Shown: positions 8,625-40,605 of the stretch, one piece after another
How positions within the stretch are numbered: the first letter of the stretch is position 1
Layout of the letters: every line of letters starts with the position of its first letter
Origin: a virus
Length of the DNA stretch: 40,605 nt
Reading direction: 5' to 3' (one strand)
IMG/VR virus record: IMGVR_UViG_3300042988_000706
Coordinates: 1 to 40,605 of that record
Notes under the pieces: generated by a model
Database searches by the model: none
The model's input: only the letters and a program-made list of their open reading frames with translations
Told to the model about the DNA's origin: nothing
Program-made: the position numbers and the translations under genes

Positions 8625-8981
8625 TTATGCACTAATTTCTTTTCGTCCAGGACATCCTTCTACTTTTCGAGCGATTACTTCAGTGTTATCCGCGAACCGC
8701 TTCATAGACTCAACCATCATGTCCATGTATCGCTTGCTAGATTCAATCTGCGAGAGTAGCTGAACCCTAAGAAACTCTTCTCTCCTATCGGCTCTGTCAA
8801 GCTGTTCTGCGTGGTGCTTCTCCTGCATGGTCAGTTCTTCCTTGTGCATGTCTTTGGTCTGGCTCATTTGGTCATTGAAGTATTTGACCTGCTGTAAGTA
8901 CAAAGCTGAAATTGCCGCAATCAAACCTCCAACTACATAGTAAACAAAGCTCATGTCTCCTTGCAGCGCTTCGGGGGTCAT
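8625..8981 (-). CDS. Holin-like protein: one membrane segment plus coiled coil
   Basis: A 118-residue protein. A hydrophobic segment spans about residues 11-30 (SFVYYVVGGLIAAISALYLQ), followed by a long charged helix to residue 85 that is probably a coiled coil. This layout occurs in phage holins and lysis-associated membrane proteins, and the gene ends the late operon opposite the endolysin. The ATG overlaps the upstream stop (ATGA). An internal ATG at residue 10 has AAGGAG very close to it, so a dual start like that of holin/antiholin pairs is possible. The holin role is inferred. Confidence 0.6.
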   Translation of the reverse strand: MTPEALQGDMSFVYYVVGGLIAAISALYLQQVKYFNDQMSQTKDMHKEELTMQEKHHAEQLDRADRREEFLRVQLLSQIESSKRYMDMMVESMKRFADNTEVIARKVEGCPGRKEISA

Positions 8982-11900
8982 TTCTTCGTCACTCTCCCTT
9001 TCTTTAGTAGGTAATCCTCTTTAATCATATTGTTTATTTCAGTGTAGATACTGGCAATGTCCTTTGCTTTTCCTGCGTCATCCTGCTTTGCTGTCTTTGC
9101 CCTAAACTCTGGTGATGCCATGTACTCCGCGACCGATGCTTTAGCCATCTGTCCAAACTTCTGCTGATAGTAGACACGCTCTTGAGCGTTCATGCTGTAT
9201 TCGCGAGTGATACCTTTTTTAGTTTGCTTGATATCGAATGGTATGTATTGCGGAAACTGGCTTGTAAGACCTGACTCATCATACATACGGTTTAGTTCTG
9301 CATCGACTCTTGTCGGGTTAACGTCCTGCATTTTGCCAGGCAGTAACCAGTTGCTTATTGCGTTTGTTGCTGGTATTGACTCTCCCCATGTATCAACCTT
9401 TGGAGGCAGTCCGAGTTGACCAAACGGAACCTTGAGCATTGCAGGGTTAATACCATACTTAGTTGTTGCGCTTGGGTCGTCTGTGCCTCTAGTTGGTGCG
9501 CCAGTAACTAAGTCATATGAGCGGTTGAGCTGACCGACTGCCGAGCCAAACGGCGCGAACTGTGACATTGAGCTGATTCCCACTTTGCCGATGTTGTCAG
9601 GTAATGTACTATTGCCGCCAATCTCATTTCCTCCAAAGAGCTTCGCTACGCCCTGGAGCAATGAGTTGTTCATAATAGACTGCGCTCCTGAGCCTAAAGC
9701 CGTCAACACTGCGCTTTTCTCCGGTGCTTGTTTTTGGATTGCATCATACATATCGACACCCATTGCAATGATTGCGCCAGAAGGTTGCGCCCAGTCAAAC
9801 TGAATCCACCTGTCACCATCCCATAACCCGATGTTAGGCATTTTCATACTGTATGGCAGTGTCTTAATCCTCTGTTCTTTAAATAGCCTTGCGTCCTTAT
9901 CAGCAGGTATATTCCCTTCGGCTAACTTCATGCTTGCAAGTGCCCACCCAAGAGTTAATAATCCGTAACCTGTAAATACCTGTCCTGCTGATTTAACAAA
10001 TTGGTACTGGTCAAACTTACCGTTACCCTTTGCGGCGTTTATAAGCTGTTTACCGATTTCCCATGTACCGCCTATGCTGTGGTCGAGAGTTCGCTTCATG
10101 ACGTTGGCAATAGTATTTTTAAATGGCAGTACAATGTTTCCTAAGCCGAAACGCTGTCCGGATTTAAACGTCCAACCGACTACATTCATTACGTCCTGAA
10201 TCTTACTAAACGTCTGCGACAGTTCGTTAAAGTCTTGATACGTACGCTGTAAGGCTTCTTCGTGTGCGTGCTGGATATAATCCATTGGCACCTGAATATC
10301 ATCAACCGAATTGATATTAGGTATGTTTTGCTCCTTAGCTACCTTTAGAGCGTACTTCTTGTAGCCCATCATGATGTCATCAAAATGCAGTTGATAAAAA
10401 GGCTTGTCTCCCATCTTTAGGGCTGTAGTTGTGGCGGTGTCTCCACGTCCGTATATCTCGCCTATAGCTTTTTTAACTGGGTTGGCAGACGCTCTATAGT
10501 CCTGCCATGCGTTAGGTCTTGAGGTGCTAAGGTCAAAGGCACCGCCTCCACCACTTGTATCAATTCCCCTTTTCATATCCTCCCATACGTAACCAATACC
10601 CTTAGTCAATGACTTAGCCGATGGGCTTGGTTGGAAGGTTGTTCTAACGTTGCTAATCCCTGTATGCTCTGCAAACGCTGGGAATGCCTTAGCAATGCCT
10701 GTGAGTATCTTGTCCAGGAATGCTGAAGCTGATTGAGACATAACACTAATCGGCACCATTGATATATTACTGCCGATGTTCTTAGCATTACTCATCGTGT
10801 TGAGTAGCAAGTTAACTCGTTGCATGCTTTTTAACTTATCAGCCCAATCAGGGTCAATATACTTTTTAACTATCTTTGAGTACTCGCCCATGATGACTTG
10901 ACCTTCACGGGTCATACGCTGTTCTGGCGTTAGCCGGGTGAAATAATCTCTCGCTAGTCGCATGATTTCGTCTTCGTCTTCTTTGGTCATCTCAACAGTA
11001 GTTTTAGTTTTGTTAACTGTGTTATTAATCTTCCCTTCGGTCTTAGCCGAATATGGATTAAAGTTATCCGCTTCGCCTTTTGCCGCTATTTTATTCGGGT
11101 CAAATGGCTTTTTGATGACTTTAGATACTTCTTTATTCGCATCGTCAATCATCCTTTTTGCGCCTTGGAGCCATCCAGCAGGACTGAGCTTACGCCATTG
11201 ACTTAATGCTTGCATTGTTTGTCCAAGCTGCGTTGCCCTTGCTGCAAAGTCTAAGCCTAACTCTCCTGCTCCTTTAACATCGCCTTGCATCATTAGTTTA
11301 AGCTGTAGGGCTTGTCCGAGCATTGCATCATCGGCGTTGTCAAGTGTTGCGCTATTTTTGTATTGAGCTAGTGCGCTATTAAAATCACTGTCTACATACG
11401 TCCACGCTTTATTCCAAGCTTCAGCATTAGTGATAGGCTCATACTGTGGCAGGTTATCGCGTAGGTATGCCTTAACCTCTGGGCTAGTAGCATCGGCATT
11501 TAAAAGAGTATTGTTTACCCATAACCGAATTTTGCCGCCTGACTCAAATGCCTCAGCACCTCTTGTGTAAATATTCTCTCGCATATCAAACGCTTGTTTA
11601 GCATTTATCCGTTGTGCTCCACCTGTAGGGTCTATCTTAATTTTGTTGCTAGGTGAGGTATTAAACGGTTGCATCCCGTCCACTGTGCCGATGGAATCAC
11701 CTGCGCCCACTGTCCTGGTAGGCATGTTAAAATCCTGTAAGCCTAGATTAGACTCTCTCACAATTTCGGTCGGTGGTGCCTTTACCACGCCACCGCTTTT
11801 GATAGTAGCCGCTTTACTGGCTATAGACTCAGCATACGACATATCCTTAGCGTGAGCCGCCTTTTGCGCAATGGACTCAGCGGTGATTAGGTCTTTGTGA

Positions 11901-13660
11901 ATCTTGCCACCGCCTAGCTGGTTCAGGTCAAGCGGTAATACTGGCGGTGTCTCTATAGGTGTGCCTAGTGTTTCGGTCACTGGCGGCGTGTATGGCGCGG
12001 TCTGTGGCTTATCCATCAGTGGTGAACTCATCGGTCTAGCCGAAGGGTTGGGGTTAGTTGGGTCAATCGGCAAGTACGAAGTTTCCTGCCTTACTTGACT
12101 GGTAGCCGGATTGATTGGAGCATCAGGCATGACACTAGCTTCACTGGCTCCCTGCGCTCCTTGACTAAAATTTGGCTGTTGCCTTGACGCTACCCTTCTC
12201 TCAACTAGTGCTCGCTCATCAGGACTTAGGGCTTCCCATAGGCGAGTTAACATGCGCTGGTCGCCTGTTTGCGCGGCTCCGCTTGCATTTTTGTTGAGAT
12301 ATTTCCAAAGTTCTTGCACTATAGCAGGATTATTGAGCGCTGTATCTTCTGCTCTTACTGCATCCATATATCTGCTAGGAACCATTGACTCAGCCGAGTT
12401 ATTAATTAGCCGAGAACCTTTAACCTGTGGCATAGCAAACGCATTCTCTCCAACGCCTTGATATGGTGCTGTAAGCTGTAACCTTTCTGGTGTGCCTGAT
12501 AGTTGGAGGCGAGGCTCTTTTCCTGATAGTTGGAGTCTGTCTGGTCGTCCAGTCAATAAACCTTGTGGAGGCGTTGCCGGGGCTTCAAACGCTCCTAAAT
12601 CTTGCGCTTGTCTCTGCGCTAATGTTCGTCCATCTCCAATGACAGAGTTGATTCCTACAGGTCTGTCAAGCATTCTTTGAGATTGCGAAGCATCAAGTAT
12701 CTGTGGCTCAGACATTGCCGCCGCTCTTCTGGCGTTAATACCTTTCTTAATCACGTTTGATGCAACACCTAATAGACCACCGCCGACGAACCCTGTGCCG
12801 CCACCCCATAAGGCATTTTCTGCACCTGCTTTTAAGACTTCCTTATTGGTTTTTCCAGTTTCAAGGTTGTCATATATTCCCCGTGTTCCCATCATTCCTG
12901 CGCCGATTGCACCTTCTTGCACTGCATACCTAAGCGGTACACTAGCGATTCCTTTAACTAGCGGCATTGTTGCCTTAGTTAGCGCAGAACCCGGTGCTAG
13001 ATATCCTGCTATATCTCCAACCGTCGATGCGATAGGGTATTTAGCTCGCTCAGCTTGCATCTTTGCCGATGTTGATGGTGCAAACTTTCGCATTAAATAG
13101 TCTGATGCGCCTAGAGTTGCGCTGTTTATCCCAGAACCAAGCGTTGCCCTTGATGATGGGTCTACAATTGCCGCAACTATCGGACTACCTAGCATTCCCA
13201 ATGATTTTATCAACGCAGTCTTTGGGTCTTTTGCCGCCTTAATCTCTGTACTGTTGCCTAACTTGCTAAGGTAAGACAATAAGGCTTTGCTTTGCTCCTT
13301 TATCATCGACTCTTTTACTGGCTTCGCTGGCTGGTCTTCGATTATAGGCACTGCTTTAGCCTTAGCCGTAGATGTCCTCATAATCTTAGACACTTGAGCG
13401 GCTTGTTCGGGGAATGCATTGCTCGCACTCCTAGCGTCATAGGCGGCTTTTCCGAGCTTTTGCATGCTTGCAGACATACCCATATTAGTTTTGCCTGTTA
13501 TCTCGTCGCGATATCTACGGAGAGCAAGCGCGGCAAGCTCAAGTTCCTTTTTCTTCTTCTCCTCGTCCTGCATCTGCTGGATGACTAAAGGGTCTTCAAT
13601 CCCTGAGTAGTCCAGACTGCTAGCGCTAGTATTACCTGCCTTATAGTATCTTGGAGCCAT
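8978..13660 (-). CDS. Giant internal virion/ejection protein (1560 residues)
   Basis: The largest gene of the window. The first 100 residues are charged and helical. There follow small hydrophobic, glycine/alanine-rich stretches (about 180-310, LGMLGSPIVAAIV and GGGTGFVGGGLLGVA), a proline-rich low-complexity middle (about 500-590), and a long helical C-terminal half with further hydrophobic patches. No lysozyme or transglycosylase motif was found by eye. Size, position at the end of the structural block and membrane-compatible segments fit an ejection protein that enters the cell with the DNA, as in P22 gp16 or T7 gp16. AGGAGGTGACAGC precedes the ATG. Confidence 0.6.
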   Translation of the reverse strand: MAPRYYKAGNTSASSLDYSGIEDPLVIQQMQDEEKKKKELELAALALRRYRDEITGKTNMGMSASMQKLGKAAYDARSASNAFPEQAAQVSKIMRTSTAKAKAVPIIEDQPAKPVKESMIKEQSKALLSYLSKLGNSTEIKAAKDPKTALIKSLGMLGSPIVAAIVDPSSRATLGSGINSATLGASDYLMRKFAPSTSAKMQAERAKYPIASTVGDIAGYLAPGSALTKATMPLVKGIASVPLRYAVQEGAIGAGMMGTRGIYDNLETGKTNKEVLKAGAENALWGGGTGFVGGGLLGVASNVIKKGINARRAAAMSEPQILDASQSQRMLDRPVGINSVIGDGRTLAQRQAQDLGAFEAPATPPQGLLTGRPDRLQLSGKEPRLQLSGTPERLQLTAPYQGVGENAFAMPQVKGSRLINNSAESMVPSRYMDAVRAEDTALNNPAIVQELWKYLNKNASGAAQTGDQRMLTRLWEALSPDERALVERRVASRQQPNFSQGAQGASEASVMPDAPINPATSQVRQETSYLPIDPTNPNPSARPMSSPLMDKPQTAPYTPPVTETLGTPIETPPVLPLDLNQLGGGKIHKDLITAESIAQKAAHAKDMSYAESIASKAATIKSGGVVKAPPTEIVRESNLGLQDFNMPTRTVGAGDSIGTVDGMQPFNTSPSNKIKIDPTGGAQRINAKQAFDMRENIYTRGAEAFESGGKIRLWVNNTLLNADATSPEVKAYLRDNLPQYEPITNAEAWNKAWTYVDSDFNSALAQYKNSATLDNADDAMLGQALQLKLMMQGDVKGAGELGLDFAARATQLGQTMQALSQWRKLSPAGWLQGAKRMIDDANKEVSKVIKKPFDPNKIAAKGEADNFNPYSAKTEGKINNTVNKTKTTVEMTKEDEDEIMRLARDYFTRLTPEQRMTREGQVIMGEYSKIVKKYIDPDWADKLKSMQRVNLLLNTMSNAKNIGSNISMVPISVMSQSASAFLDKILTGIAKAFPAFAEHTGISNVRTTFQPSPSAKSLTKGIGYVWEDMKRGIDTSGGGGAFDLSTSRPNAWQDYRASANPVKKAIGEIYGRGDTATTTALKMGDKPFYQLHFDDIMMGYKKYALKVAKEQNIPNINSVDDIQVPMDYIQHAHEEALQRTYQDFNELSQTFSKIQDVMNVVGWTFKSGQRFGLGNIVLPFKNTIANVMKRTLDHSIGGTWEIGKQLINAAKGNGKFDQYQFVKSAGQVFTGYGLLTLGWALASMKLAEGNIPADKDARLFKEQRIKTLPYSMKMPNIGLWDGDRWIQFDWAQPSGAIIAMGVDMYDAIQKQAPEKSAVLTALGSGAQSIMNNSLLQGVAKLFGGNEIGGNSTLPDNIGKVGISSMSQFAPFGSAVGQLNRSYDLVTGAPTRGTDDPSATTKYGINPAMLKVPFGQLGLPPKVDTWGESIPATNAISNWLLPGKMQDVNPTRVDAELNRMYDESGLTSQFPQYIPFDIKQTKKGITREYSMNAQERVYYQQKFGQMAKASVAEYMASPEFRAKTAKQDDAGKAKDIASIYTEINNMIKEDYLLKKGRVTKK

Positions 13661-29765: not shown

Positions 29766-30266
29766 CTACTTCCCCTTTTTAACTAAAGTCAAAACTCCAT
29801 TAATCCTTTTTTCATCCCAAGCACTTTCACAAATATTATGCCTCTGCCGAATGGTTGAAAATTTCTTAAACTGGCTTTCCGAGTCATAATCTTTGTTTTC
29901 TCGATAGCTTATTAAAGTAACTGCATCAAATTGTGCATACTGCTTGCCATCATCCCATGATGTCCATACAACTTTTGGGTTGGCAATATACACATTAGTT
30001 GTGTTGGATTTTACTATGTTCACAAACCCATTATCGTAAAGAAGTTTAATTGCTCTGTAAATACTCGACCTGCTTTTGCCGAAATAATCTTCAAATACAG
30101 CAGCCGAACATACTAACGCATTCTTTTTATCCATCTTCTCAAGGATAAAAAGAAATACATCATGTGCAATTACGCTCTCACGGGCTAACCATCGCATTTC
30201 TACATATGTGTCTCTGTAGTGCTGTACAAAATTTTTGTTGGTCAACTTTGGGTTTCTTTGTGCCAT
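29766..30266 (-). CDS. RepL-family-like plasmid-type replication initiator
   Basis: 166 residues. FVQHYRDTYVEMRWLARESVIAHDVFLFILEKM is followed by a winged helix (about 55-90, VFEDYFGKSRSSIYRAIKLLYDNGFVNI) and then NVYIANPKVVWTSWDDGKQYAQFDAV. This order is that of Firmicutes RepL plasmid initiators. AGGAGG lies 8 bases before the ATG, and a strong promoter lies at 30308-30336. Iteron-like repeats are about 210 bases upstream. It could start replication of the phage genome as a plasmid or act as a regulator related to RepL. Homology is from motif layout only. Confidence 0.65.
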   Translation of the reverse strand: MAQRNPKLTNKNFVQHYRDTYVEMRWLARESVIAHDVFLFILEKMDKKNALVCSAAVFEDYFGKSRSSIYRAIKLLYDNGFVNIVKSNTTNVYIANPKVVWTSWDDGKQYAQFDAVTLISYRENKDYDSESQFKKFSTIRQRHNICESAWDEKRINGVLTLVKKGK

Positions 30267-30336: not shown

Positions 30337-30403
30337 CAACTATTTTATAATTCTTAAAACATTAAATTGTTAACCTGATTTGACACGTGTCTGCTTCATT
30401 TTG

Positions 30404-30419
30404 TGAACTTATTTGTTCA
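30404..30419. promoter_or_regulatory. Operator-like inverted repeat
   Basis: TGAAC-TTATTT-GTTCA is a perfect 5-bp inverted repeat about 70 bases upstream of the RepL-like promoter. The same half-site (AGTTCA) recurs near 30292. A winged-helix or HTH protein of this module is a plausible ligand. Confidence 0.45.
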
Positions 30420-30476
30420 TGAAATGATGCATACATGTGTCAAATTTTAAAATTGGTTTACATTTATTTTTGGGTT

Positions 30477-30541
30477 GACAATAACACGTGCTTGTGTCAC
30501 CAGCTATGACACGTGCTTGTGTCACCAGCTATGACACATGC
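30477..30541. repeat. Iteron-like 25-bp tandem repeats with TGACAC boxes
   Basis: Two identical 25-bp units (30484-30508 and 30509-30533) start ACACGTGC and end CAGCTATG; a third begins at 30534. Each contains TGTGTCA and TGACAC in opposite orientation around CCAGCTA. Further boxes lie at 30381-30391 (TGACACGTGTC) and 30433-30442. The interval 30267-30835 otherwise holds the promoter, the operator and the hairpins described separately. It is a candidate initiator-binding site or operator. Confidence 0.7.
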
Positions 30542-30699: not shown

Positions 30700-30761
30700 G
30701 ACTGCTTTGACCGAAGGTTGAAGAGTCGAGTAAGTGAACCCTCCGAAGGATGATGTACTCG
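30700..30761. other. Twin hairpins with CCGAAGG/CCTTCGG cores
   Basis: Two adjacent imperfect inverted repeats. GACT...AGTC (30700-30703 with 30724-30727) encloses ACCGAAGGT, and CGAGTA...TACTCG (30727-30732 with 30756-30761) encloses CCTCCGAAGG. On the minus strand the cores read CCTTCGG, favourable for stable UUCG-type loops. They lie just past the HTH-gene terminator and could be a structured RNA end, a protein-binding site or part of an origin. Confidence 0.4.
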
Positions 30762-30766
30762 CTAAT

Positions 30767-30796
30767 AAAAAAAGACAGCTCAAGAATCTGGCTGTC
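30767..30796 (-). terminator. Intrinsic terminator of the HTH gene
   Basis: Minus-strand GACAGC (30791-30796), an 11-base loop, GCTGTC (30774-30779) and seven T residues (30767-30773). It isolates the HTH gene from the RepL-like operon. Confidence 0.85.
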
Positions 30797-30835
30797 TCGT
30801 ATTTAGGGACTCCGATTTATGTTAATCACTAAAAT

Positions 30836-31339
30836 CTAGCATTCTTCCAACGAAACATGCGCGTTCTTTGGCTTGAAAATTTTGCAGAATATCCTGTGCG
30901 GTATCCACCCGTACGCGTTGAAGCCGATGGAAAAACAATATCCCATCTCGTTCGGGCTGTACTCCTCACTTACCCTGATTCCCTTACTGTCACAGTAATC
31001 TACCCAACTCAGCCGATGCATCTCAGGAAAATACCCCCTCGGTAAATATACCTGCAATGAACACTCGTCATTACTCCCTACCCCTGCTTGCCTCCTCTCC
31101 GCTACCTCCATCAAATACGACTCCCTAAACGCTAGTCTCGCATACGGACTGCTCGACTCAGATACTAACTCCCCCCTCTGGATTAAGTTCCAGATGTTGC
31201 TGACCGAGGTCGAAAGGATTCGTGCGACCTCCTCCCTGCTAGTAATCAACCTGTCCTCTCTTATCGCCGCTCTCGCTTGCTCTTTCGTAACCCTCAAAAG
31301 ACTTAAAACCTCTTCCTCGCTAAACATCCGCTTCGCCAT
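30836..31339 (-). CDS. Helix-turn-helix protein, probable regulator
   Basis: A 167-residue protein. Residues 33-58 (TSREEVARILSTSVSNIWNLIQRGEL) form an HTH of the kind seen in MerR-type and excisionase-type DNA-binding proteins. The first 30 residues hold a second helical repeat (FSEEEVLSLLRVTKEQARAAIRE) that resembles it. The C-terminal half is unknown and has several aromatic residues and cysteines. AGGAG lies 9 bases before the ATG. It has its own promoter and terminator and sits at the boundary of the two transcription arms, as a lysis-lysogeny or copy-control regulator would. No integrase accompanies it. Confidence 0.7.
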   Translation of the reverse strand: MAKRMFSEEEVLSLLRVTKEQARAAIREDRLITSREEVARILSTSVSNIWNLIQRGELVSESSSPYARLAFRESYLMEVAERRQAGVGSNDECSLQVYLPRGYFPEMHRLSWVDYCDSKGIRVSEEYSPNEMGYCFSIGFNAYGWIPHRIFCKIFKPKNAHVSLEEC

Positions 31340-31386
31340 CCGCTCAGGCTCCTGTCGCTGTAGTTTTTGTAATGCATATATCCTGT

Positions 31387-31415
31387 ATTATATATCTTTT
31401 TGGTCGAAATTGGAA
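31387..31415 (-). promoter_or_regulatory. Promoter for the HTH gene
   Basis: Minus-strand TATAAT (31387-31392) with a weak TTCCAA (31410-31415) after a 17-base spacer, 48 bases upstream of the ATG. Confidence 0.5.
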
Positions 31416-31807
31416 GGCTCTTTCTGACTCTGCCGAAGGTAAGGGAGTGGGGTGGGTCAAGGGCGGTAGTGCAAGGGCGGTAGGGATTGGGTAGGGCGGT
31501 AGTTCAAAGGCTTGAAGGTCAAGGTCAAGGGCGGTGCCCTTATGCCGAAGGTAGTGACTGGTTTGGTAGTGCGGTAGTTCAAGGGCTTAAATTCAAGAGA
31601 TTAACGACAAGGGCGTTTAAAGGCGTTTTAAAGGGGTGGTTGAGTTGAGAGGTTAAATTATTCGGCTAAGTATATTTGAGCGTGTGATGAAGGAGTTAAA
31701 TACCTTCTCGTTGATGTTGAGTGCATGAGTCAAGAAAATTTGGGAAATTTTTTGGAGCGGCGAAAAGGAGATGATGGGGGTGCCTGTTTGCTGGTGGGGC
31801 TTGCTGG

Positions 31808-31821
31808 CGACATTAATGTCG
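31808..31821. promoter_or_regulatory. Perfect 14-bp palindrome, candidate operator
   Basis: CGACATTAATGTCG is a perfect palindrome inside the G-rich repeat region. Its length and central AATT-like core are typical of dimeric repressor sites. No second copy was noticed. Confidence 0.4.
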
Positions 31822-32175
31822 GTCGCTAACTGACTGGCGGTGACTGCTTGCATAGGGCGGTGCCTATGCCGAAGGTAGTGACTGGTTTTGAAGGGCGGTA
31901 GGGCAAGGGCAAGTACAAGGGCGGTAGTTCAAAGGCTTGAAGGGCGGTAGTGCGGTGAGGCGGCTAGGAGGGTCAAGGTTGAGTGGTTCTGGGCTGGAGG
32001 TATTTGGGCTAGTGCGGTGGTTCTTTCGTTTAGTGGCGAGGCAGAGAGGTGGGTAGGTGGCGATTTTGGGGTGGCGTGGGTCGGGTGATTTGGTGGGGAG
32101 GGTCGAGCGGGGTGGTGATGTTGTGGCGATATATATCACCTTGAGCCGGAAAAGTTGGCGGGTGCCCAAAAGCCT

Positions 32176-32219
32176 CCTACCCCGGTGGGGGTGGGGGTGG
32201 GTGTAGGGGTGGGGGTAGG
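32176..32219 (+). other. G-quadruplex motif flanked by short inverted repeat
   Basis: Five runs of three to five G separated by one to four bases occupy 32186-32216. CCTACCCC (32176-32183) and GGGGTAGG (32212-32219) flank or overlap the runs and could alternatively pair. The motif would form on the plus strand. Confidence 0.7.
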
Positions 32220-32229
32220 TGGCTAGAGA

Positions 32230-33194
32230 AGCCGAATTGAGACCGCAAATATTATGTGAAATTAGACAAAATAGTTATTTGTTGCAATTTTAAATTTTCG
32301 AAAAAAAATAAAAAAAGAGGGACAACACACTGGTATGAGCGGGTTGCCTGCCCGCGTGCTGGTGCTTGCATAAGATGCCGATGGAAAAAATAGAAGGATG
32401 CCGATGGGAAAACTGGAAAAAGAAAAAAACTGTATCCAAACTGCCCAAACCTTGAAAGCATTGGTATAAGCTAGGTTAGCTGATTTGTAATCGTTAAAAA
32501 TGCGTTATGTAACAAAAAGTTACGGAATGGATACAAAAAGATACAAACATGCATATTAAGAAGATACTACTTTTGTATTCGGAGGTTCCGGATAATTTTT
32601 TAAAATCCTCGTAAGGGAGACCTACTTGCAACTTTTTTTTTTATAAAAATGGGGTATATATTTTCCGGAAAAAAAAATCAGCTGGAAATTATTTTTAACT
32701 TCCGCAATATTATGTCGTCACACCTCCAATCAGCCACGTCCCCGCCATTATTATGTTAAGGTAAAAAGTTGGTTTTGTATCTTTTCAATCGGATACAAAA
32801 TTCTCCCAGCAGTTTCCAGTACCAAACCGTTGCGCTGCAACACTTTGACGATGGAAAATTTTCCCATGGAGCCAATTGGAGAATACAATTTCCAGTTCCG
32901 GAAACCCTTGCGCACAACCAAAAAAAATCTTGTGACAATAATAAAAATTCGCCTAATTTTTCCCACAACTAATATATGGCATTATTACATTTACCCATAT
33001 CATCCCAACAATCCAATATCGCGCAGTTACATCCTAACAAAATGTAAAATATTACAACTACATTTCTTGCCAATTCTCCAGCCACCAAACCCAATCAACA
33101 TAACACCAAACGCCTTTCTTCCAATAATAGTTTTTCTAAAATTCAACTCATCGGCACCACAAAAAATAATCAAACAAAAAAAATAAAATAGTTG
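32230..33194. other. A/T-rich non-coding region with GATACAAA boxes
   Basis: No convincing gene. GATACAAA-type boxes recur: two direct copies near 32529-32545, TTTTGTAT near 32572, and a perfect 9-bp inverted pair TTTTGTATC/GATACAAAA at 32773-32781 and 32792-32800. Other features are a GCGGG/CCCGC hairpin (32339-32355), a GGAAAATTTTCC palindrome near 32853-32864, and a duplicated ATGCCGATGG (near 32370 and 32398). From about 32960 to 33180 the plus strand is C-rich and G-poor, opposite to the skew at 31430-32230. A melting or initiation zone is plausible. Confidence 0.5.
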
Positions 33195-33223
33195 TTGACA
33201 TTAACATTATCAAGCGTTATGAT
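33195..33223 (+). promoter_or_regulatory. Strong early promoter of the plus-strand arm
   Basis: TTGACA (33195-33200), exactly 17 bases, then TATGAT (33218-33223). An A-rich stretch upstream could act as an UP element. It precedes the first plus-strand gene by 61 bases and is the best promoter in the window. Confidence 0.85.
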
Positions 33224-33284
33224 GTATACATAGCAAGCGTACAACACAACGCATCAAATTAATTAACTTAGGGGGTTTTTTATT

Positions 33285-38736: not shown

Positions 38737-40605
38737 TGATTTTATTCAACAACCCTGCAATATACGGAAGCCGGGGCAGTGGTGATAGGCTTGCCGATGC
38801 CGCAGGGGTAGTCATGCACTTAGACGTTAGCACACTGGTTACGCCTACTGTAATTCGCGACCTTGCAAAGAAAGGTAACAACGCCACGCTATACAACACA
38901 GCAGGTACCGCGCTATCAGGGATTTTAAATACTGATACGCGTATTAAGTCTATGGTTAATTTGTTAGGCAGCACGGGGAACTTTGATAATTCCGAAGCGT
39001 GGACATCTTCAAATGCATCTAATGTACAGTCTAGCAATGAAATTGTAACAACTGGTAGTGGTGCCAACCTAACTGTCAGAACACAAAAAATAGTAGGTAC
39101 CGCGCCGACTGGTGATGTTTTATACGCTTGTGGTTATTTTAAGCATAGTGGATCAGCTAGTAGTATGGCAGTATTGATACGCAATGGGTTTAGTAGCACT
39201 ATATATTCCACTGGTACGATAGCCTCTCCTACCGCTAATACATATTATTTTGTCGGTACTATGGCAACATTACCATCGAATGCAACATCGTTAACAATTG
39301 GTTTACAGGTGCTTTATCCTGACGCCGCAACTGCCAGTGGCAAAACTATGACAAACAAGAAAGCACACATCATAAACTTGTCGCAAATAGTAGCCTCAAC
39401 AGGTATCCCTATGCCAACGAAAGCAGAGATGGATTTAATGATGCAAGCCCACTACGACACAGGTGGTCAGTACATCGGCGCAACGCCACTAGGCAGTGGG
39501 TATGCTCTCAAGGCGTGCAAAAAGCTAGACGGTACCGATGATTATGGTCGTGTGCTGACTCCTAGTGCTGGGACGAATATAACCACTGAGCAATTTGCTC
39601 TTGGGTTTGTTGGGTATTGGAGTGCTATAGCATCGGGTTTTATAGTATGCAAAAACGGTGCCAGCTCTGCATTTATACAATATTCCGCAAATTTAGGTGC
39701 AATTGCAGCTGGGAAATTTACGTTTTTCTTGAATGGTACAGCCAATCAAATAACGATACCTACTGCTATATCTGCATCAACTTGGTATTCTGTTATTATG
39801 CATCGCGATGCATCTGGAAATCTGTCGATATTGATAGATGGGACTGTTGTCGCAACGGGAACATACGCGACAGCCTTAAATCCTGCGGCTAATTTAATGC
39901 TAGGGTGTCGAAGTAACAGCGCAGATGGGTCAGCGCAAGCGTCATTTTCAAACGCATACACCAACCATGAATTCATCGCAGTAGGCGCAGACGCAACAAT
40001 AGAAAACGCTAAGAACTTCCAACGCTCACACGCACTGACTTATGTATCGTCATATGGGACAGTACCTATCACAGCAATAGGAGCTATCACCGGAACACTA
40101 GCGGTAGGAAACGTGCTGACAGCAGGGGCACTTACACCTTCAGGAGCTACTGTTACCTATCAGTGGAGGCGAGCAGATACTAGCGGAGGTACTTATACAG
40201 ATATTAGTTCGGCTACGTCTAGTACTTACACGCTAGTAAGCGCAGACACTGGCAAGTATCTAAAAGTAGTTGCTACTGGCTCCGGTTCGTACACTGGCTC
40301 AGTTACTTCAGCGGCTACTGGTTCAGCAGTTACCGAAGCTATCACAGCTATTGGAGCTATCACTGGAACACTAGCCGTAGGAAACGTACTGACAGCAGGG
40401 GCACTTACACCTTCAGGAGCTACTGTTACCTATCAGTGGAGGCGAGCAGATACTAGCGGAGGTACTTACACAGATATCAGTTCGGCTACGTCTAGTACTT
40501 ACACGCTAGTAAGCGCAGACACTGGCAAGTATCTAAAAGTAGTTGCTACTGGCTCCGGTTCGTACACTGGCTCAGTTACTTCAGCGGCTACTGGTTCAGC
40601 AGTTA
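38736..40605 (+). CDS. Tail fibre/adhesin, N-terminal part, runs off the right end
   Basis: Starts at ATG 38736 with GGAGG 7 bases upstream and stays open to the last base; it resumes in frame at base 1. The opening residues (MILFNNPAIYGSRGSGDRL) may be the virion anchor. A central jelly-roll/LamG-like domain ends in the typical strand WYSVIMHRDASGNLSILIDG followed by NLMLGCRS (about residues 345-390). Ig-like repeats begin at 40068. It is probably a receptor-binding appendage, unusual in lying between helicase and primase genes, away from the virion block on the other strand. Confidence 0.8.
   Translation, partial: MILFNNPAIYGSRGSGDRLADAAGVVMHLDVSTLVTPTVIRDLAKKGNNATLYNTAGTALSGILNTDTRIKSMVNLLGSTGNFDNSEAWTSSNASNVQSSNEIVTTGSGANLTVRTQKIVGTAPTGDVLYACGYFKHSGSASSMAVLIRNGFSSTIYSTGTIASPTANTYYFVGTMATLPSNATSLTIGLQVLYPDAATASGKTMTNKKAHIINLSQIVASTGIPMPTKAEMDLMMQAHYDTGGQYIGATPLGSGYALKACKKLDGTDDYGRVLTPSAGTNITTEQFALGFVGYWSAIASGFIVCKNGASSAFIQYSANLGAIAAGKFTFFLNGTANQITIPTAISASTWYSVIMHRDASGNLSILIDGTVVATGTYATALNPAANLMLGCRSNSADGSAQASFSNAYTNHEFIAVGADATIENAKNFQRSHALTYVSSYGTVPITAIGAITGTLAVGNVLTAGALTPSGATVTYQWRRADTSGGTYTDISSATSSTYTLVSADTGKYLKVVATGSGSYTGSVTSAATGSAVTEAITAIGAITGTLAVGNVLTAGALTPSGATVTYQWRRADTSGGTYTDISSATSSTYTLVSADTGKYLKVVATGSGSYTGSVTSAATGSAV
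40068..40605 (+). repeat. 273-bp tandem Ig-like domain repeats (right part of array)
   Basis: Unit 1 is 40068-40340 and unit 2 starts at 40341 and is cut by the contig end after 265 bases. The two differ at only a few bases. Each encodes an Ig-like module running from ITAIGAITGTLAVGN through TYQWRRADTSGG to TGSAVTEA. Confidence 0.9.
40479..40605. repeat. Terminal direct repeat (right copy)
   Basis: Identical to bases 1-127. Joining here keeps the fibre frame open (codon phase matches at 40479 and 1), supporting a circular map of about 40478 bp. Because it lies in the Ig repeat array, one or more 273-bp units may be missing from or added to the assembly. Confidence 0.9.

Follow-up and report, generated by a model that had tools for sequence, protein, structure and literature searches.

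A strand-biased, repeat-rich gap between the divergent gene arms of a phage genome: a candidate origin and early-control region

Background

In phage c2 the replication origin lies in a non-coding gap between divergent early and late gene blocks, yields an untranslated transcript and supports plasmid replication (PMC7150918). The three known types of such origins, c2, bIL67 and 923, are wholly different in sequence (PMC7150918). The origin of the PLE satellite is a non-coding region holding several repeat types and RepA iterons (PMC7145576). R-loop origins have been described for T4 (PMC3016281) and ColE1 (PMC5043065), and the R-loops of T4 depend on the DUE, not on G-clusters (PMC3016281).

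The window considered here is the whole of IMG/VR virus record IMGVR_UViG_3300042988_000706, 40,605 bp in length. Its largest gap resembles the lactococcal Ceduovirus (c2) origin in separating divergent arms, in having an early promoter at the early side and in holding no ORF or RBS. It resembles the PLE origin as a non-coding interval with several short-repeat families in a phage-related genome. On the present analysis the gap, 31340-33284, may be an intergenic replication-origin and early-control region with a c2-phage-like layout, a tentative reading to which we assign a probability of about 0.4.

Genome organization

The record carries a 127-bp terminal direct repeat within a 273-bp tandem array of a tail-like gene. 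Because the terminal repeat falls inside this array, the genome is probably a closed circle cut in the tail-like gene, and the repeat copy number at the record junction is uncertain for the same reason. The 273-bp repeats, possibly Ig-like, belong to one long tail-type gene and occupy 1-659 and 40066-40605.

Genes are arranged in two arms. The minus-strand arm runs from 31339 to 8978 and encodes terminase, a P22-type portal, scaffold, capsid and tail genes; the plus-strand arm runs from 33285 through the record ends to about 8763 and encodes a SNF2-type helicase, a DUF927 primase, a RusA-like resolvase and an amidase. At the convergent end of the minus arm (8978-13660, minus strand) lies the gene of a 1560-aa protein with no Pfam or PHROG match. 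The structural genes show about 27-31% identity to Bacillus Pagevirus, and the replication genes are similar to their counterparts in clostridial phages, among them THSA-485A and FP_Epona; these resemblances make a Firmicute host likely.

The gene-free interval sits exactly where the late/structural and replication arms diverge. The sequence-only reading had described 800 bp without genes; that block is indeed gene-free, but the gene-free stretch is longer, 1945 bp, the largest gap of the genome and 4.8% of an otherwise tightly packed sequence. It comprises four parts: a G/T-rich block, an A-rich middle, an oppositely skewed wing and a promoter (Table 1). The promoter is the best of the region; other plus-strand candidates in the gap reach 9/12 matches at most, and their total number is within what shuffles explain. 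Perfect inverted-repeat arms of at least 9 bp occur at five places in the genome, including the one in the opposite wing.

The predicted structure of the HTH_17 protein bordering the gap is unusable (mean pLDDT 41). A terminator-like hairpin of its gene is present at 30797-30773, followed by a T run. Beside it, within 30700-30800, is a further hairpin, CGAGTA...TACTCG with inner CCTCCGAAGG, which could be a small structured RNA.

Table 1. Positions of features in and around the gene-free interval
Feature	Position	Strand	Evidence or remark
RepL/DnaD-like winged-helix protein, candidate initiator	29766..30266	-	PF05732 2.8e-5; phrog_186 5.9e-4
Rival iteron/operator cluster: TGACACGTG-type sites, including 25-bp tandem copies	30380..30541	.	
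167-aa HTH_17 DNA-binding protein, adjoining the repeats	30836..31339	-	Pfam HTH_17 3.2e-6; SD, coding score
Whole gene-free interval	31340..33284	.	Coding scores, SD sites, gap list
G/T-rich block	31430..32230	+	Keto skew +0.33 overall, GC skew +0.52
GGGCGGTAG copies 1-3	31461..31502	+	Exact matches
Repeat X copy 1, 26 bp, AGGGCGGTAGTTCAAAGGCTTGAAGG	31493..31518	+	
Repeat Y copy 1, 24 bp, TATGCCGAAGGTAGTGACTGGTTT	31541..31564	+	
Repeat Y copy 2, 24 bp	31865..31888	+	
GGGCGGTAG copies 4-6	31893..31950	+	Exact matches
Repeat X copy 2, 26 bp	31918..31943	+	Identical to copy 1
GGTGGG tract	32184..32222	+	Strongest G-quadruplex-type motif of the genome
A-rich central segment with TGCCGATGG direct repeats (32376, 32399) and GATACAAA sites (32530, 32540)	32231..32700	.	
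Oppositely skewed wing, G/T-rich on the minus strand	32700..33195	-	Keto skew -0.23, GC skew -0.40
Inverted repeat TTTTGTATC-N10-GATACAAAA	32773..32800	.	Candidate operator or initiator site
Near-consensus sigma-70 promoter of the plus arm, TTGACA-17-TATGAT	33195..33223	+	11/12 matches
First gene of the plus (replication) arm, 50 aa	33285..33437	+	Coding score 0.23

Repeats in the G-rich block

Short units recurring about eight times had been noted in the block, and this holds: GGGCGGTAG occurs in six exact copies (31461, 31475, 31494, 31893, 31919 and 31942), with no copy elsewhere on either strand, and GGGCGGT has eight copies in the block and a single one in the rest of the genome (6868). 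The block holds 139 repeated 9-mer pairs, whereas 1000 dinucleotide shuffles gave 6.1 on average and never more than 40, so that the observed number is about 23 times the shuffled mean; the longest exact repeat of the block is 26 bp, against a shuffle maximum of 15. Only windows in the tandem array at the record ends contain more repeated 9-mers.

Two longer repeats were said to stand in swapped order, with lengths of 24 and 25 bp. The order, X1 Y1 ... Y2 X2, is as described; the lengths are 26 and 24 bp. Past shuffling, to which the swap had been attributed, is possible, but tandem duplication followed by loss can also produce this order.

Spacing of the G-rich units is irregular (14, 19, 26, 23 bp and other distances); their copies are degenerate and reordered, and the units are not palindromic. 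The irregular spacing and reordered copies speak for a largely neutral spacer, in which repeats were multiplied by slippage and recombination and strand-biased mutation accumulated, so that the DNA serves only to separate the arms; that no homologue keeps the block and that no structure signal is seen (both below) point the same way. This reading is nonetheless rather unlikely, as 1.95 kb has been retained in a tightly packed phage and the extreme skew requires some asymmetric process.

G-quadruplex motifs number three in the block and none elsewhere in the genome; relative to composition-matched shuffles, this enrichment is not significant (P about 0.06).

Strand skew

G exceeds C on the plus strand of the block as the sequence-only reading had claimed (G 332, C 104, T 201, A 164), and no 800-bp window of the genome has a higher GC skew than the one at 31451 (+0.51). 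GC skew alone does not set the block apart, because values up to +0.47 occur in early coding genes near 35.05 kb; keto skew (G+T minus A+C, 400-bp windows; genome mean 0.033, SD 0.087) does. The skew plot that had been proposed as a check places the most extreme values of the genome in both directions within this one gap, up to +0.39 in the G/T-rich block and down to -0.28 at 32.8-33.2 kb. Keto skews larger than 0.28 in size are found in 0.17% of 9,238 windows from other loci, mostly viral contigs. The opposite wing, C/A-rich on its plus strand and lowest in keto skew genome-wide, is a mirror image of the block.

The bias is as strong in segments without G-rich repeats (31591-31850 and 31961-32180) as in the repeat clusters; it is therefore not merely a by-product of the repeats, and there are two separate features to explain. 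Gene direction does not account for the keto skew, because the coding strands of genes in both arms are purine-rich and not keto-rich. Both the strength and the two-way pattern of this letter bias are unusual.

Coding potential and transcripts

The block is non-coding with the boundaries first proposed: stops interrupt all six frames, and its larger ORFs have non-coding codon scores. The largest, a minus-strand ORF of 101 aa, would be the trace of a gene if the block were the remnant of a decayed one. With a codon score of -0.15 it falls below every real gene (lowest 0.08), no RBS is apparent upstream of it and it has no family match; every other frame is broken as well, and the distances between repeats, for example 14, 19, 26 and 38, are not divisible by three and ignore reading frame. 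Gene decay is thus a very improbable source of this DNA. Between the repeat clusters, at 31763-31835, AAAAGGAG is followed by a 20-codon hydrophobic ORF (MMGVPVCWWGLLATLMSVAN). Its spacing from AAAAGGAG is too short, so it was set aside as probably due to chance.

A long repetitive RNA and a decoy for host factors had both been suggested. As a structured non-coding RNA the block was rejected: folding on the two strands is no better than for shuffled sequences (z -0.42 and -0.06), and there is no match to an Rfam family. The decoy is unsupported. A long untranslated plus-strand RNA, acting as a regulator or as a sink for a host factor, could take its support from the G-rich sense composition, from two hairpin-forming GGGCGGTGCC units in the block and from the transcript made by c2-type origins. 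No convincing plus-strand promoter able to transcribe the G-rich wing was found upstream of the block, however, and with the folding and Rfam results this makes such an RNA improbable.

Relatives

No homologue of the block was found in phages (blastn), plasmids or IMG/VR viral contigs, which is weak evidence since these scans reach close relatives only, nor in 25 related virus records or other retrieved loci. Searches with the HTH gene, helicase, portal and capsid, each on its own, yielded no relatives, and those with TerL, portal and primase yielded only relatives of about 25-43% identity that share one to four genes and do not have this gap. No syntenic relative was found among viral contigs, genome contigs, or phage and plasmid records.

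The block has a GC content of about 54%, which drops to about 35-40% to its right; this contrast and the block's sharp edges would suit DNA captured from a host or another element and still foreign in composition. Plasmids, phages and viral contigs hold no match to it, though, and the 18-base repeat pattern gave 12 scattered single matches in about 85,000 genomes, as expected by chance; capture is accordingly a poor prospect.

An origin and early-control region

An origin was among the functions first suggested, and the position of the gap supports an origin or control region. The gap is the largest of the genome and lies at the divergence of the arms, with replication genes on the plus arm and structural genes on the minus arm. 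Its two wings hold the genome's extreme keto skews in opposite directions. Short direct and inverted repeats mark the A-rich middle between them, and the 11/12 promoter, the inverted repeat and the GATACAAA sites add an early promoter and repeats that look like protein sites. Against this, no DnaA box was found in the gap, the skew signs of the wings are opposite to the usual leading-strand bias expected for forks leaving the gap centre, the G-rich wing has no convincing plus-strand promoter, and there is a competing iteron-like site beside the RepL-like gene.

That site is a serious rival. The true origin might be the TGACACGTG repeat cluster upstream of the RepL-like gene, about 1 kb from the G-rich block, which would then be only spacer or regulatory DNA. 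An initiator-like gene with an adjoining iteron-like cluster is a classical plasmid layout, repeated 12-mer pairs number 18 in the cluster and at most 4 in shuffles, and the neighbouring protein has a RepL match and also matches a Vibrio phage 'replication protein' (7e-7). The same sites could, on the other hand, be operators of the promoter region of the minus-arm genes there, and the RepL similarity is weak, phage winged-helix regulators looking alike. We consider this placement of the origin unlikely, though deserving of weight.

If the gap is an origin and control region, the G/T-rich block would form the left half of 1.95 kb of control DNA holding a (theta) replication origin and the early-promoter controls. 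The adjacent HTH_17 protein or the RepL-like protein may bind the repeated sites, and the A-rich middle may be the melting zone. More speculatively, a plus-strand transcript through the G-rich wing could leave a stable RNA:DNA hybrid from which synthesis is primed, and deamination of C and A in a displaced strand left exposed for long could have helped to make the wing G/T-rich.

R-loop-forming sequences were called with our own reimplementation of a published model (PMC4489302). All matches in the genome lie on the plus strand of the block and none on the minus strand; these motifs are not independent proof, because they follow from composition. Origins of the R-loop kind would give a reason for the G-rich sense strand; that R-loops form on it is guesswork. 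A bolder arrangement, in which oppositely G/T-biased wings and a degenerate GGGCGGTAG array make a dual, inward-pointing R-loop origin with transcripts converging on the A-rich centre, is a long shot. To our knowledge, no phage example of a dual, inward-pointing R-loop origin has been described.

Were the gap to prove an origin, it would offer a compact, testable example of a replication start in a phage whose control DNA has no recognisable relatives, and of a strand bias fixed locally in non-coding DNA, with neither gene direction nor codon use determining it. Were it neutral, it would warn that spacers of kilobase size, with expanding repeats, can occur in packed phage genomes.

Comparison with known systems

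The c2 gap is 611 bp long with mapped early promoters EP1 and EP2, whereas the gap here spans 1945 bp and has one good promoter. The c2 origin has 4 repeated 9-mer pairs and a keto skew of about 0.02-0.04, compared with 139 pairs and +0.33 in the block, and blastn against phages found no sequence similarity of the block to the c2, bIL67 or 923 origins. PLE iterons are semi-palindromic and bound by RepA_N; the G-rich units here are not palindromic, and no RepA_N protein was detected. An iteron-controlled origin suits the block poorly, given its irregular spacing and its HTH_17 neighbour, and suits the 30380-30541 cluster better. With the T4 oriF and ColE1 R-loop origins the block shares a non-template strand rich in G and an AT-rich zone next to it (PMC3016281, PMC5043065), and R-loop-forming sequence is present on its sense strand, as motif only. 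A difference from those origins is that no good plus-strand promoter was found upstream of the block. The G-rich repeat region is thus real and unusual in degree, while its position and layout are of a known kind.
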